Notes under the pieces: model-generated
What the model saw: the letters and a program-made list of their open reading frames with translations, nothing else
The model's database searches: none
Told to the model about the DNA's origin: nothing
Position numbers and translations under genes: made by a program
In this document: positions 14,910-34,509 of the stretch, piece by piece
Layout: each line of letters starts with the position of its first letter
How positions within the stretch are numbered: the stretch's first letter is position 1
Source: Clostridia bacterium
Lineage (GTDB): Bacteria > Bacillota > Clostridia > DSM-8532
Direction: 5' to 3'
DNA length: 46,907 nucleotides
Assembly (NCBI GenBank): GCA_020047785.1
Contig: JAIFNI010000034.1
Span: forward strand, 1-46,907

Positions 14910-15132
14910 GTCGAACCCTCCTGAAAGCCATGTCCTGTGACCCCGCACATGGCGAACGTCCATCCTGCATTTTACCATGAGGGTGCCATGCCTGTATCGT
15001 GAATCGGAAATATTCAGAATGCTTTGTGAAATAATAAGCGATAAAGTGTTATTATGATGCTATGGCAACGTATATGCTTCTTTGTTCTATGATATCATTG
15101 GAACAGATGGTCAACCGGCCGGGAGGATTGCC

Positions 15133-15513
15133 TTGAACCTGAAACCGAGACCTGGTGATTTCATATTGGTTGGACTTCTGCTGAGTGTCATCCTGCTTCT
15201 GCCTGTTTTTCTGACAGGCTCCGGCACCGGGACGGCAACAGCCGTCGTGACGCAGGAAGGCCGTGAATTGTCCCGGATACGCCTGACCGGGCTGGAAAAG
15301 ACCATTCGGGTCGAATATGGCGGCGGGCATTCGGGAACGATTCTTGCCGAGAACGGACGCATCCGGTTCGAGGAGTCCGATTGTCCGGATCAGGTGTGCG
15401 TGGATACGGGCTGGTTGTCGAAACCGGGGCAGACGGCCGCATGTCTGCCTGCACGCGTGCTGATCCGGATCGAAGGGACTGTGACGGGGGATGTGGATGT
15501 CAAACTTCGATAA
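15133..15513 (+). CDS. NusG domain II-containing membrane protein (EetA-like)
   Basis: A 126-residue protein with one N-terminal transmembrane helix (about residues 8-30) and an external NusG-II domain with the usual CPDQVCVDTGWLSKPGQTAAC cysteine pattern. TTG 15133 is preferred because GGGAGG at 15121-15126 is six bases upstream; the open frame reaches 15082 without similarity. It overlaps the next gene by 17 nt. In FLEET loci such as that of Listeria, a protein of this kind (EetA) sits beside the PF07456-type protein EetB and NDH-2. That gene order is the basis for the EetA-like label, which is from memory of the family. Confidence 0.82.
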   Translation: MNLKPRPGDFILVGLLLSVILLLPVFLTGSGTGTATAVVTQEGRELSRIRLTGLEKTIRVEYGGGHSGTILAENGRIRFEESDCPDQVCVDTGWLSKPGQTAACLPARVLIRIEGTVTGDVDVKLR

Positions 15514-16102
15514 TGCCGATGGTGCCGGCGAAGTTGAAAAGGGAAAGCGTGGTGCGGACAGTGATTTTGCCGCAGTCAGGCATCGGCGGATCAAGCGCCT
15601 GGCTTTGAACGCGCTTTTTCTTGCCATGGCCATGATTCTTTCTGTCGTGGAGCGATGGATTCCCGTGACAGCCCTGATTCCGATTCCCGGGGTGAAGCTT
15701 GGGCTGGCGAACATCATCACGCTTTTCATTCTGTTTTACGCCTCCTGGACGGATGCCTTCGTGGTCAGCCTGCTGCGGTGCCTGCTGACAGCTCTTCTGT
15801 TCGGCGGCATGTCCTCCCTGATGTTCTCTCTCGGCGGTGCGTTCCTGGCATTGCCCGTGATGATGCTGTTCAAGGCGGGCCATCCGAAGTGGTTCTCCCT
15901 CATCGGCATCAGCGTGGCGGGTGCGGCCGGCCACAACATCGGACAACTCGGCATGGCCATGCTGACCCTGAAAAGCATGGCTGTGATTGGATATCTTCCG
16001 GTGCTTCTTGCAGCGGCGATCCTGATGGGCACCCTCACGGCTCTTGTGGCGGACCCTTTCTTCAGGGCAATGGGACATACCCGCCTGGTATCGCCCGGAT
16101 GA
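15497..16102 (+). CDS. Gx transporter / heptaprenyl diphosphate synthase component I family membrane protein (EetB-like)
   Basis: A 201-residue protein with a charged cytoplasmic N-terminus (about 38 residues) and five to six membrane helices. VERWIPVTALIPIPGVKLGLANIIT and LLFGGMSSLMFSLGGA are typical of the Hpre_diP_synt_I (PF07456) family. ATG 15497 is favoured over ATG 15491 because GGGGG at 15486-15490 is then properly spaced. Family members are annotated either as the small subunit of heptaprenyl diphosphate synthase or as a transporter; in FLEET clusters the equivalent is EetB. Its overlap with the NusG-II gene indicates co-translation. A 7-bp-stem hairpin (GGCCGGA/TCCGGCC, 16157-16177) lies in the gap before ndh. 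Confidence 0.85.
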   Translation: MSNFDNADGAGEVEKGKRGADSDFAAVRHRRIKRLALNALFLAMAMILSVVERWIPVTALIPIPGVKLGLANIITLFILFYASWTDAFVVSLLRCLLTALLFGGMSSLMFSLGGAFLALPVMMLFKAGHPKWFSLIGISVAGAAGHNIGQLGMAMLTLKSMAVIGYLPVLLAAAILMGTLTALVADPFFRAMGHTRLVSPG

Positions 16103-16206: not shown

Positions 16207-17358
16207 ATGACAAGACGGATCGTCATCGTGGGAGCGGGATATGCAGGCGTTGAAACGGCGCTGTCCCTGAATCGGCACAAGAAGGAACTTGACGTGGAAA
16301 TCGTCCTCGTGGACAGAAATCCATATCATACGCTGCTGACCGAATTGCATGAAGTCGCAGGAAACCGTGTGTCGGAAGAAGCGGTCAAAGTTCCGTTGCG
16401 CGAAATTTTCCGTTATACCGCTGTGAAAACGGTGACGGCGAATATCGGCGCATTCGATTTCGAAGGGAAAAAACTGACGCATGACCAGGGAACGATCCCG
16501 TATGACGTTCTCGTATTGGCCATGGGCGGCGCACCGAACTATTACGGCATCCCCGGTCTGAAGGAACACGCCATGACCTTGTGGTCCCATGATGATGCGG
16601 TCGTGCTTCGCGGGCACATCGAGCGCTGCTTCCTGCTTGCCTCCCAGGAAAAGGACCCGGTTGCCAGAAAGCGTCTGCTTACGTTTGTCGTGGGCGGAGC
16701 CGGCTTCACGGGTGTCGAAATGATGGGCGAGCTTGCGCTCTGGACGCGTCATCTCTGCAGGCAGCATGATATTCCGCGTCCGGATGTGCGTCTCCTGCTC
16801 GTTGACCTGCTGCCCACCATCATGAGCAATCTGTCGAAAGCGAACATCGGGAAATCGCAGAAGTACCTCGAGCACAAACTGGGTGTCGAAATTCTGTTGA
16901 ACACCTCCATCAAGGAAGCGACAGCCGAAGGCGTCGTGACGGGAACCGGCGTTCTCGATACAAAGACCTTCATCTGGGCGGCCGGTGTCCGGTCGAATCT
17001 GATTGTCGACGGTCTGCCGCTGGAAGCGGTCGGCGGCCAGAAGCGGCTCAAGGTGGACGAATTCGGAGAAACCGGCATCAAGGGGGTCTATGCGGTCGGA
17101 GACATCGGCGCCCTGCTGGATGACAAGGGGAAACCGTATCCCGCCATGGTCGAGAACGCCGTCCAGACCGGCAAGGGCGTGGCCAGGAACATCCTGGCCG
17201 AACTTTCCGGAAAACCGCGGACGCCTGTGACTGTTGCGATGCACGGCATCATGGTCTGCATCGGACGCTGGTTCGCCGTGTCGGACATCATGGGGAAGAG
17301 TCTGCCAGTCTGGCTTTCCATTTTGATGAAGTATCTCGTGAACATGCATTATCTCTGA
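16207..17358 (+). CDS. ndh: Type II NADH dehydrogenase, catalytic part
   Basis: A 383-residue FAD protein that oxidises NADH and reduces quinone without pumping protons. FAD loop GAGYAG is at 9-14, the NADH loop GGAGFTG at 163-169, and the second FAD contact is GVYAVGDIGALLD. The start has GGGAGG at 16194-16199, seven bases away; the open frame to 16120 is non-coding upstream. The C-terminus ends MKYLVNMHYL then TGA, and the same frame continues at once with EITGFRGMYNYLRHEW into the next open frame. In many Clostridia the enzyme continues at this point into a membrane domain, so this looks like one gene interrupted by a single TGA. Confidence 0.93.
   Translation: MTRRIVIVGAGYAGVETALSLNRHKKELDVEIVLVDRNPYHTLLTELHEVAGNRVSEEAVKVPLREIFRYTAVKTVTANIGAFDFEGKKLTHDQGTIPYDVLVLAMGGAPNYYGIPGLKEHAMTLWSHDDAVVLRGHIERCFLLASQEKDPVARKRLLTFVVGGAGFTGVEMMGELALWTRHLCRQHDIPRPDVRLLLVDLLPTIMSNLSKANIGKSQKYLEHKLGVEILLNTSIKEATAEGVVTGTGVLDTKTFIWAAGVRSNLIVDGLPLEAVGGQKRLKVDEFGETGIKGVYAVGDIGALLDDKGKPYPAMVENAVQTGKGVARNILAELSGKPRTPVTVAMHGIMVCIGRWFAVSDIMGKSLPVWLSILMKYLVNMHYL
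17356..17358 (+). other. In-frame TGA between ndh and its membrane tail
   Basis: Codon 384 of the ndh frame is TGA. Before it the frame reads NMHYL; after it, with no shift, EITGFRG and then MYNYLRHEW. No ribosome binding site precedes the next ATG (17380). TGA ends many neighbouring genes, so the genetic code is standard. No strong stem-loop of the selenocysteine type is evident in the 40 nt after it. Confidence 0.85.
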
Positions 17359-17379
17359 GAAATCACCGGATTCCGCGGC

Positions 17380-18117
17380 ATGTACAATTACCTCCGGCAT
17401 GAGTGGACGGATGTCCGTCAGCACCGGACCTTGCTGGAGCAGCACTGGTCCACCCGCACGCAGGCCTGGTGGCAGGTCCCGCTCCGCTTGTTCCTTGGCG
17501 TGATGTGGCTGGTTGAAGGCCTGACGAAGGTGGCCGGGGGCTGGCTTTCCAGTCCCAAACTGGCTGGCTTCATGGGCTATGCCGCCGATGCCTCCAGCGG
17601 AGCCACCGCCTCCGGTGCCTATGTGCTCCGTACGGATGAAATCGTCAACTTCAAGACAGGCCTCGTCAACTTCCTGCTCGGTACCCATACGCGCCTTGTG
17701 GAAGGGGTTGCGATATCCGAAGCCATGTTCGCAAAAGTTGAAGTCTTTCATTTCGGTGATTTCAACCTGATGCCCTGGTTCATCCAGAATGTGGTGCTGG
17801 GCAGTGATGGATTGGCCATGTTCTTCCAGGTCCTGGTGGTTGTTTTTGAGATTCTCCTCGGCCTGATGTTCCTTGGCGGGGCCTTCACTTTCCTGGCTTC
17901 GATTCTGTCGCTGGGTCTGATGATGATGTTCCTGACCTCCAATGGCATTTACGAGGAATCCTGGTGGATGCTGTTCGCTTCCGTCGTCATGATGGGTGGC
18001 GCGGGACGTGCCTTCGGTCTGGATTACTGGCTCATCCCCTGGGTGACCAATGTCTGGGACAGTTTCTGGAAGAACCGGAAACTGAGACTCTTTTTCCGTC
18101 ACGGACTCGATCGCTGA
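17380..18117 (+). CDS. DoxX-like membrane domain, C-terminal continuation of NDH-2
   Basis: A 245-residue open frame with about four hydrophobic helices (around residues 33-52, 145-166, 172-190, 197-215) and conserved-looking VPLRLFLGVMWLVEGLTKV, the start of DoxX-like membrane modules. It is in the same frame as ndh and separated from it by TGA plus seven codons. ATG 17380 has no Shine-Dalgarno sequence (upstream is GGATTCCGCGGC). I therefore regard it as the membrane half of a ~635-residue NADH dehydrogenase, either split by mutation, separately made at low level, or reached by readthrough. An assembly error is also possible. It is followed after 13 bp by the polyprenyl synthase gene. Confidence 0.8.
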   Translation: MYNYLRHEWTDVRQHRTLLEQHWSTRTQAWWQVPLRLFLGVMWLVEGLTKVAGGWLSSPKLAGFMGYAADASSGATASGAYVLRTDEIVNFKTGLVNFLLGTHTRLVEGVAISEAMFAKVEVFHFGDFNLMPWFIQNVVLGSDGLAMFFQVLVVVFEILLGLMFLGGAFTFLASILSLGLMMMFLTSNGIYEESWWMLFASVVMMGGAGRAFGLDYWLIPWVTNVWDSFWKNRKLRLFFRHGLDR

Positions 18118-18130
18118 AAGGGGACCGGCT

Positions 18131-19108
18131 ATGTGGGAAAACCAACCTTGGCTCCGCGAGGAAATGGCAGCGTTTGAGACTTTTGCCGCGGACCGCTTCG
18201 CCGCCAAGGGGAACGCATACAAAGAAATATCCGCGCGGCTGCTGCTTTCCGGAGGAAAGCGCCTCCGTCCCGCGATGACCATCCTGGCCGCGCGAAGCGG
18301 AGAGTATGACCGGGCACGCGTTTTCCCGGCCGCATTGGCCGTGGAGACCCTCCATGCCGCCACACTCGCGCATGATGACATTGTCGATGGCGCGGCGACA
18401 AGGCGGGGGATCCCGACGGTATCCGAGCGGCACGGTGTCAACATGGCCGTCTACACAGGTGATTACCTGTTCGCCAAGAGCCTTCTGCTGATGGCGGAAT
18501 CCGGTCTTGAACCGGAACGCACCGAGTTTGTCGCGAAAGCGGTCCTTTCCATGTGCGAAGGGGAAATGGCCCAGTATCTCGGTCGTTTTGAAATCACTTC
18601 CGTGCCCCAATACCTCCGCCGAATCGCCAGAAAGACGGGGCTCCTGTTTTCAGCGTCCTGTGCCATCGGCGGCAAGGCGGGCTGTTTGGCCGAACCGGAT
18701 GTGAAGCGGCTGACCCGTTTCGGCTTCAAGTTCGGCATGGCCTTCCAGATTCGGGATGACCTGCTGGATATGGATACGGAAGAAAAAACGGCGGGAAAAC
18801 CTGTGGCAAGAGATCTGCGTGATGGAATCGCCACATTGCCCGTCCTGCTGGCCTTGAAACAGGCGGCAGGCATGGAGGCGAAACTCCAGGCATGCTTCCT
18901 TGGCAAAGGCGACATGGACGAATTCCTTGATGCCGTGCGGGATGCCGGCGGGACAAGGGATGCAGGACGGATGCTCGGGCGATACGCCGACAAATGCCGG
19001 AGACTGCTGACCGAGCTGCCGCAGCAGACAACCAGAAATGCTTTGGAAGAGTTGACGGAATGGCTGACATCCGGCAACGAAACCTTGCAGATACAATACA
19101 ACACATAA
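18131..19108 (+). CDS. hepT: All-trans polyprenyl (heptaprenyl) diphosphate synthase
   Basis: A 325-residue trans-prenyltransferase that extends farnesyl or geranylgeranyl diphosphate with isopentenyl diphosphate to make the quinone side chain. The first Asp-rich motif is LAHDDIVD (DDIVD at 82-86) and the second is FQIRDDLLD (Asp209, Asp210, Asp213). The FFSGGKRLRP-type motif appears as LLSGGKRLRP. Start is supported by AAGGGGA. In FLEET loci the equivalent gene is dmkB, supplying demethylmenaquinone synthesis next to ndh2. No UbiA-type prenyltransferase (DmkA) is present in this window. Confidence 0.92.
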   Translation: MWENQPWLREEMAAFETFAADRFAAKGNAYKEISARLLLSGGKRLRPAMTILAARSGEYDRARVFPAALAVETLHAATLAHDDIVDGAATRRGIPTVSERHGVNMAVYTGDYLFAKSLLLMAESGLEPERTEFVAKAVLSMCEGEMAQYLGRFEITSVPQYLRRIARKTGLLFSASCAIGGKAGCLAEPDVKRLTRFGFKFGMAFQIRDDLLDMDTEEKTAGKPVARDLRDGIATLPVLLALKQAAGMEAKLQACFLGKGDMDEFLDAVRDAGGTRDAGRMLGRYADKCRRLLTELPQQTTRNALEELTEWLTSGNETLQIQYNT

Positions 19109-19126: not shown

Positions 19127-19660
19127 ATGAAGAAAACATTTGCTCTGGTCCTGGCAATCGCGGTACTCTTTACTTTCACGGCGTGCGGATCGTCCACCAC
19201 AAAGACCGGTCTGGCGACAATCACATCCATCGGCAGTTCCAAGGATCTGACAGCTGAAAAAGATGGCACTGCGCAGGCAGACACCATCATCGCGTCCGTC
19301 ACGGTTGATTCCGCCGGCAAACTCGTCACCGTCGACATCGAATCCGTCCAGGCGAAGATCAACTTCGACAAGGATGGCAAGGTGACATCGGACAAGGCTG
19401 TCAAGGTGCCCTCGAAAACGGAACTCGGTGAAAAATACGGCATGAAGAAAGCCTCCAAGATCGGCATGGAATGGAATGAGCAGATTGCCGGTCTCGAACA
19501 GTGGCTGGTCGGCAAAACAGCGGATCAGATCACGAACATGAAGGTCAAGGAAGTCGAAGGCAAGAAGATTGCCGACGAAGCCGACCTGATGACAAAGGTC
19601 ACCATCGGCATCGCAGACTACCAGGAAGTGGTGCTGAAGGCCATGGCGAGTGCGAAGTAG
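19127..19660 (+). CDS. Lipoprotein of the NDH-2/ApbE locus
   Basis: A 177-residue lipoprotein: signal peptide with lipobox FTAC, mature Cys at residue 20, followed by GSSTTKTGLATITSI. The mature part (about 155 residues) has GKLVTVDIESVQAKINFDKD, then TELGEKYGMKKASKIGMEWN and a C-terminal VTIGIADYQEVVLKA helix. This resembles FMN-binding-type or COG4939-type lipoproteins found beside ndh2 and apbE, but the Ser/Thr-GAT flavinylation motif of PplA-like proteins is absent. Start has GGAGGAGAA upstream. A strong hairpin follows the stop. It could be an electron carrier partner or simply a surface lipoprotein. Confidence 0.7.
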   Translation: MKKTFALVLAIAVLFTFTACGSSTTKTGLATITSIGSSKDLTAEKDGTAQADTIIASVTVDSAGKLVTVDIESVQAKINFDKDGKVTSDKAVKVPSKTELGEKYGMKKASKIGMEWNEQIAGLEQWLVGKTADQITNMKVKEVEGKKIADEADLMTKVTIGIADYQEVVLKAMASAK

Positions 19661-19698: not shown

Positions 19699-19750
19699 GC
19701 ATTGCCGGAAGGGCTGCATCATGAGGCACACTCTCAACAGGAGACATGGC

Positions 19751-20830
19751 ATGACCCGGATCCTCGCATTCCTTCTGGTTTTTGCGGTGTTTTCCGCACT
19801 CGTCGGCTGCAGTCCGGCTCAACCGGCCCTGACCAAGTACTCCTATGAGTTTCTAGGTTCCTTTGATACCCTGATCCAGTTCATGGGCTATGCCAAAGAC
19901 CAGGCCTCCTTTGAAAAGATGGCCAAAAAGGGGCAGGCGCGGTTCGAGGAACTCCACAGGATATTTGACATTTATCATGATTATGACGGTATTGTGAATG
20001 TCAAGACACTCAATGATCAGGCAGGCGCCGCACCCGTCAAGGCGGGAGCGGATCTGCTGGATTTCATCACGTTCTGCATCGACTGGCACGACAGGACGGA
20101 CGGAGTCTGCAATATCGCCCTTGGACCTGTTCTTTCGTTATGGCACGACGCCCGCACGAACGGCACCGATGATCCCGCGACGGCTGCATTGCCGGACAGG
20201 ACGGCGCTGCTGGAGGCATCCCGGCTGTGCGACATCCGGGATGTCAGGGTGGACAGGACCGCAGGGACCGTATTCCTCGCCAGGAAAGGCATGTCGCTCG
20301 ATGTGGGCGCCGTCGCAAAGGGATATGCCTGCCGGGTTGTCATGGATGAACTGAAATCGGCCGGATACAGCTCCTTCGTGATCAGCGGAGGCGGCAACAT
20401 TGTCACCGTAGGCGCGCCTCAGGACGGCATCCGGAAAAAATGGGGCGTCGGCATCCAGAACCCGGACGGAAATCCCCTGAATCCCGATGACAGTCCACTC
20501 GATGTGGCCTATGTGAATGACCTGTCAGTGGTCACGAGCGGAGATTATCAGCGCACCTATGTCGTGGACGGCAAACCCTATCACCACCTCATCGATCCCG
20601 CGACCCTGATGCCTGCGGTCCATTACAGGTCCGTCACGGTGATGACGCCCGACCCGGGTCTCGCGGATTTTTTCTCCACCACGCTCTTCCTTCTCCCGTA
20701 TGGGGAAAGCCTGGCCGCCGCAAAAAAAGACGGCATCGATGCCCTCTGGATTTTTCCGGACGGCACGGTGGAAACGACGGATGGCATGAAAGCCGTGCTG
20801 CGCGACCTCGGGGGAGCGACAAACCGCTGA
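19751..20830 (+). CDS. apbE: ApbE-type FMN transferase lipoprotein (FmnB-like)
   Basis: A 359-residue exported enzyme that covalently attaches FMN from FAD to Ser/Thr of target proteins. It has a lipoprotein signal (MTRILAFLLVFAVFSALVGC, Cys20) and ApbE motifs LDVGAVAKGYACRVVMDEL, FVISGGGNIVTVG and HHLIDPATLMPA, the last carrying the Mg2+-binding Asp. Start 19751 is favoured by AGGAG at 19739-19743; ATG 19721 is an alternative adding ten basic residues. It closes the electron-transfer locus and ends at a good terminator. A flavinylation target with the canonical motif is not visible in the window, so the acceptor must be elsewhere or atypical. Confidence 0.94.
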   Translation: MTRILAFLLVFAVFSALVGCSPAQPALTKYSYEFLGSFDTLIQFMGYAKDQASFEKMAKKGQARFEELHRIFDIYHDYDGIVNVKTLNDQAGAAPVKAGADLLDFITFCIDWHDRTDGVCNIALGPVLSLWHDARTNGTDDPATAALPDRTALLEASRLCDIRDVRVDRTAGTVFLARKGMSLDVGAVAKGYACRVVMDELKSAGYSSFVISGGGNIVTVGAPQDGIRKKWGVGIQNPDGNPLNPDDSPLDVAYVNDLSVVTSGDYQRTYVVDGKPYHHLIDPATLMPAVHYRSVTVMTPDPGLADFFSTTLFLLPYGESLAAAKKDGIDALWIFPDGTVETTDGMKAVLRDLGGATNR

Positions 20831-20857
20831 TGTGTGAATTCCAAAGGAATCCAGCAT

Positions 20858-20881
20858 AAAAACTCGTTGAAACGAGTTTTT
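20858..20881 (+). terminator. Intrinsic terminator after apbE
   Basis: AAAAACTCG (20858-20866), loop TTGAAA, CGAGTTTTT (20873-20881). The A-tract on one side and T-tract on the other allow termination of the locus ending with apbE. Confidence 0.85.
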
Positions 20882-21003
20882 ACACAAGAATCAGGCATCT
20901 CCTGCGAAAACAGGAATCATTTTGAATAAAGACCGTGACATTGTGGTACGATTGCTGTGGGTTTGTTCCTGCCTTCGTACGAAAGCCCCATTCCCGGATA
21001 ACA

Positions 21004-34350: not shown

Positions 34351-34410
34351 AAAAAACCCGGCGCAATACTACCCTGAAAAGGGTTGCATGCCCAGGCGGC
34401 CGGCTTTTTC
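34351..34410 (-). terminator. Terminator of the ZTP riboswitch expression platform
   Basis: On the minus strand AAAAAgCCGGC (fwd 34399-34409) can pair with GCCGGgTTTTT (fwd ~34351-34361), with an inner hairpin GCAACCCTTTTCAGGGT...TTGC between them and a run of six T at the end. The left arm overlaps P3 of the aptamer, so ligand-bound P3 and this terminator are mutually exclusive. Binding of ZTP/ZMP should let transcription proceed into pflB. Confidence 0.72.
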
Positions 34411-34460
34411 CCACCCACGCTCCGCTGCGGTTGTTTCCGCTGTTCCGCCAGTTGCGTGGG
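34386..34460 (-). promoter_or_regulatory. ZTP (pfl motif) riboswitch aptamer
   Basis: Read 5' to 3' on the minus strand: P1 CCCACGC closes with GCGTGGG (7 perfect pairs). Inside are the conserved AACTGGCGGAACA, a P2 hairpin GCGG-AAACAA-CCGC, and AGCGGA before the P1 return strand. After a linker, P3 holds the hallmark GCCGGCCGCCTGGGCA. This order and these bases match the pfl/ZTP class, which senses ZMP/ZTP when folate-dependent one-carbon units run short. It sits directly upstream of pflB, the gene family for which the motif was named; PFL makes formate that feeds 10-formyl-THF. Confidence 0.92.
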
Positions 34461-34509
34461 GTTCTGTTCATACCAAAATTCCTCCGGTCTCATGCCGGAA
34501 TCCGATTTC

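Follow-up and report, generated by a model that had tools for sequence, protein, structure and literature searches.

The gene encoding a type II NADH dehydrogenase (NDH-2) in an uncultured clostridial bacterium is interrupted by a TGA, beyond which the same reading frame continues. Is this codon a mutation, an error of the draft sequence, or a stop that the cell reads in some other way? The question was addressed on the window, meaning the whole analysed stretch of 46,907 nucleotides, by comparing the gene, named here ndh2, with its homologues, and by evaluating the decoding apparatus found in the assembly.

The interrupted frame and its neighbours

Translation of positions 16207-18117 on the + strand agrees with the preliminary description, where an in-frame TGA in ndh had been reported, with the frame continuing past it. 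From the ATG at 16207, preceded by the ribosome site GGGAGG, 383 codons lead to the TGA at 17356-17358, which is codon 384 and the only internal stop. Another 252 codons follow, free of further stops, until the TGA at 18115-18117. Around the interruption, the translation reads ...VNMHYL*EITGFRGMYNYLRHEW.... The frame and the genes surrounding it are the following:

15082..15513, + strand: NusG domain II protein, EetA-like (Pfam NusG_II, E 1e-28)
15491..16102, + strand: heptaprenyl diphosphate synthase component I / ECF-type membrane protein, EetB-like (Pfam Hpre_diP_synt_I, E 3e-39)
16207..17358, + strand: NDH-2 part of ndh2, 383 aa and then TGA, with the FAD/NAD domains and the start of the C-terminal anchor (Pfam Pyr_redox_2, E 3e-36; phmmer match to 4nwz)
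17356..17358, + strand: in-frame TGA, codon 384; TGG (Trp) in the closest relatives (codon comparison, 33 distinct loci)
17359..18117, + strand: remainder of ndh2 in the same frame, unbroken up to its own stop, covering the last part of the NDH-2 anchor and a DoxX/MauE-like membrane region (MauE and DoxX matches; end-to-end alignment with relatives)
18131..19108, + strand: polyprenyl diphosphate synthase, DmkB-like (Pfam polyprenyl_synt, E 3e-57)
19721..20830, + strand: ApbE-type FAD:protein FMN transferase (Pfam ApbE, E 2e-60)

The first part of ndh2 encodes the flavoprotein fold with two dinucleotide-binding domains, homologous to solved NDH-2: the Pyr_redox_2 domain is found (E 3e-36), and the NDH-2 of Caldalkalibacillus thermarum (PDB 4nwz) matches by phmmer over residues 4-389 (E 9e-64), a span including the start of the anchor and the quinone-clamp region. 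The Caldalkalibacillus protein, 405 aa long, is without a DoxX-like extension, unlike ndh2 here. The second part features a weak Pfam match to MauE (E 3e-6), while DoxX scores below the cut-off (E 0.012). An extra C-terminal membrane domain is typical of the Ndh2 proteins associated with flavin-based extracellular electron transfer (FLEET).

As judged from the genes themselves, ndh2 lies beside EetA- and EetB-like, prenyl-quinone synthesis and ApbE genes, in a cluster resembling the FLEET locus known from Listeria and from lactic acid bacteria; the Eet, Dmk and Fmn roles of the neighbours are presumed from family and position. Listeria lmo2638 and Lactiplantibacillus ndh2, likened to the window's gene by this context, are likewise NDH-2 genes accompanied by polyprenyl synthase, EetA/EetB-like and ApbE genes; the window's frame differs from them in being broken by TGA at codon 384. 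In those bacteria, iron reduction is impaired when ndh2 is deleted (PMC8837199; PMC8547011). A protein of 177 aa is encoded at 19127-19660, after the polyprenyl synthase gene and ahead of ApbE; its DNA is conserved in the same-genus genome, and no convincing match to the protein was found in Pfam or NCBIfam.

The ATG at 17380, considered as a possible restart, had been described as having no ribosome site, and indeed none of GGAG, GAGG or AGGA is present upstream of it. Because of this, a separate second protein starting there is unlikely. In the AlphaFold model a weakly predicted helix, 368-402, spans codon 384; confidence is low past residue 400 (mean pLDDT 60), and the model was excluded from the conclusions.

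Codon 384 in homologous genes

The two halves of ndh2 align as one continuous protein to 33 distinct homologous loci, with 38-80% identity. These are the loci covering codon 384, drawn from public assemblies as well as from relatives of the window's genome, same-contig duplicates being counted once. Since the alignment is to a single protein in all these loci, the halves are not adjacent by chance. The preliminary description had given clostridial relatives as continuous at this place, and all 33 loci do read through.

It had also suggested alignment as the way to find which residue occupies the position of the stop. The residue is Trp, encoded by TGG, in 19 of the 33 loci, and Phe (10), Tyr (2), Asn (1) or Val (1) in the rest; neither a stop nor Cys occurs in any (0 out of 33 for both). 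TGG is also the codon of the same-genus relative, 80% identical at the protein level, which represents the one other genome of the genus in the comparison; the source species is represented by this assembly alone. A single G-to-A transition would be sufficient to turn TGG into TGA.

To judge how isolated the stop is, open frames of the relatives were aligned to the window, taking the best-supported frame at each place, for a total of 12,360 compared codons. Among these, the codon at 17356 is the only internal stop with conserved flanks on both sides; the eight other stops encountered correspond to gene ends or fall within poorly aligned stretches. This comparison replaced a codon-usage scan for broken genes, too blunt as it missed the known TGA site, and was used in place of an unrestricted frame comparison and a reverse scan of the relatives, both swamped by antisense and shadow frames.

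Breaks of this kind in ndh2 are not unique to the window, as shown by the homologous gene of a Christensenellaceae draft genome (L037), which carries its own isolated in-frame TAG at codon 31 (L037:1812-1814); at that position, the window and the aligned relatives have Glu or Asp. Apparent internal stops in two other loci were rejected, one (L019) as a disagreement at a contig edge, the other (L020) as the natural end of the gene.

Two measures were taken on both sides of the stop; they mostly record the period that preceded it, and neither is able to demonstrate that translation still proceeds past it. Compared with the same-genus gene, dN/dS is low in both parts, 0.09 before the stop and 0.13 after it. 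Where the other relatives share an invariant residue, the window departs from it at 11 out of 105 positions upstream and 3 out of 31 downstream. For the intact same-genus relative, the corresponding departures are 12 out of 105 and 3 out of 31, the downstream counts referring to the part covered by both genomes. As no extra departures are seen downstream, the frame shows no decay there, and the stop is either recent or not real.

Origin of the stop

The explanation best fitting these observations, and one in which we place somewhat better than even confidence, is a recent and isolated TGG-to-TGA nonsense allele, changing Trp384 to a stop in a normally continuous FLEET-type ndh2. It is favoured because none of the 33 loci has a stop, while 19 of them, including the same-genus relative, read TGG, one transition away; because the stop is the only internal one with conserved flanks in the 12,360 codons; and because the frame is otherwise undamaged and offers no restart site. 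A single substitution would thus have occurred recently in the ndh2 of this bacterium and, if the base is real, translation would end at residue 383. The difference of one base from the relatives is directly visible in the alignments; its reality in the genome, and the loss of function, are what we infer from it.

An intact downstream frame is equally expected if the base is wrong, and the sequence comes from a draft assembly of 332 contigs with 75% completeness. A sequencing or consensus error at 17358, with TGG in the genome and an ordinary, full-length Ndh2, is accordingly a possible explanation, to which we assign a clearly smaller weight. It fits a change limited to a single base with intact surroundings, and the isolated TAG of L037, also a draft, is at a different site of the same gene; on the other hand, no other such error is found in the compared codons of the window, and consensus substitutions are rare at good coverage. 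A recent nonsense mutation and an assembly error were both among the options originally listed, and it is these two that the evidence supports: relatives have TGG, from which one substitution leads to TGA, and the stop stands alone.

Low-level readthrough of the UGA by tRNA-Trp, acting as a near-cognate, is rather unlikely. It would supply some full-length Ndh2, making the allele hypomorphic and not null or, in a stronger version, making use of both isoforms. Near-cognate insertion of Trp is most favoured where the UGA replaces a former Trp codon, and the frame downstream is still intact. In-frame stops surrounded by purifying selection are, moreover, widespread in bacteria (PMC7918605). Opposed to this are the anticodon of tRNA-Trp, CCA, the presence of RF2, and the lack of a stimulatory structure after the stop (hairpin z = +0.8). 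Functional readthrough is indicated by a constrained downstream frame together with a stop that at least two species share, as in the argument of Belinky et al. 2021 (PMC7918605); the window's stop is instead found in one assembly only, and in none of the 33 distinct loci. The weights given to nonsense allele, base error and readthrough were judged, not computed. Regulated production of two isoforms, also proposed at the outset, finds no positive evidence, as no relative shares the stop. Its fullest form, in which the TGA is real, fixed in the species and leaky, giving soluble and anchored Ndh2 that tune the NADH feed to extracellular electron transfer, is highly improbable.

Selenocysteine insertion and reassignment of TGA to Trp, both suggested initially since each makes use of this codon, are effectively excluded. 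For selenocysteine, homologues have Trp, Phe, Tyr, Asn or Val at codon 384, never Cys; in the 75%-complete assembly SelA has no match and SelB only elongation-factor-like matches below the cut-off. The proposed search for a SECIS element yielded none: the 70 nt starting with the TGA are no more stably folded than shuffled sequences (z = +0.8), with no unusual hairpin, and no Rfam family matches around 17356-17358. For reassignment, the window has TGG at 99 sites where a relative has Trp, against one supported TGA; ndh2 itself contains 18 TGG codons. RF2 is present in the genome, and among the tRNAs retrieved tRNA-Trp has the anticodon CCA and none reads UGA. TGA terminates 20 of the 27 long open frames of the window, confirming the early remark that it ends many neighbouring genes and that the genome is not recoded. 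The genetic code is standard.

A new decoding mechanism is not called for: most simply, the TGA is a recent loss-of-function mutation or a draft base error. The finding is ordinary. Bacterial in-frame stops of this sort are widespread and have short persistence times; those of Belinky et al. 2021 (PMC7918605) are likewise isolated in otherwise conserved genes and short-lived in evolution.

Predicted product and other elements of the window

By descent the gene is an NDH-2, with a truncated form of the enzyme as its predicted product. The Caldalkalibacillus protein has 405 residues, and number 385 of these is the one aligned with codon 384. The stop had been placed before the membrane domain; it falls instead inside the canonical C-terminal anchor of NDH-2. 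The truncated product should lose about 20 residues of this anchor and the whole extra domain; the translated part does not contain a complete C-terminal membrane anchor, the missing portion being encoded in frame beyond the stop.

In the Caldalkalibacillus enzyme, membrane anchoring and the quinone site both belong to the C-terminal domain, with Ile379 clamping the quinone head (PMC6167311). The alignment pairs Ile379 with Val378 of ndh2, and the truncated product would retain this clamp position together with the FAD and NADH domains. E. coli NDH-2 deprived of its last 43 residues mostly moves to the cytosol, according to a statement cited within PMC8151925. The product of the nonsense allele would probably be a soluble protein and a poor donor of electrons to membrane quinone; in that strain, electron transfer by way of the ndh2 locus would consequently be abolished or reduced. 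A second NDH-2 was not found in the assembly (75% complete).

If the base is real, it would mark a strain in which the FLEET-type NADH dehydrogenase is no longer attached to the membrane. For annotation it is a warning, since gene prediction would yield two separate ORFs or a pseudogene. As a mechanism it carries little weight, since it amounts to one nonsense base, whether genuine or an error.

Two further elements were observed in the window. An intergenic hairpin (AAACTCGTTGAAACGAGTTT) is located at 20838-20901, 3' of the ApbE gene: 45-62 bp around it recur, with about 80% identity, at some 40 scattered sites of the same-genus genome (G001), which suggests a dispersed repeat, either terminator-like or a small palindrome. 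Rfam yields a single match in the window, a ZMP/ZTP riboswitch (57 bits) at 34383-34465 on the - strand.
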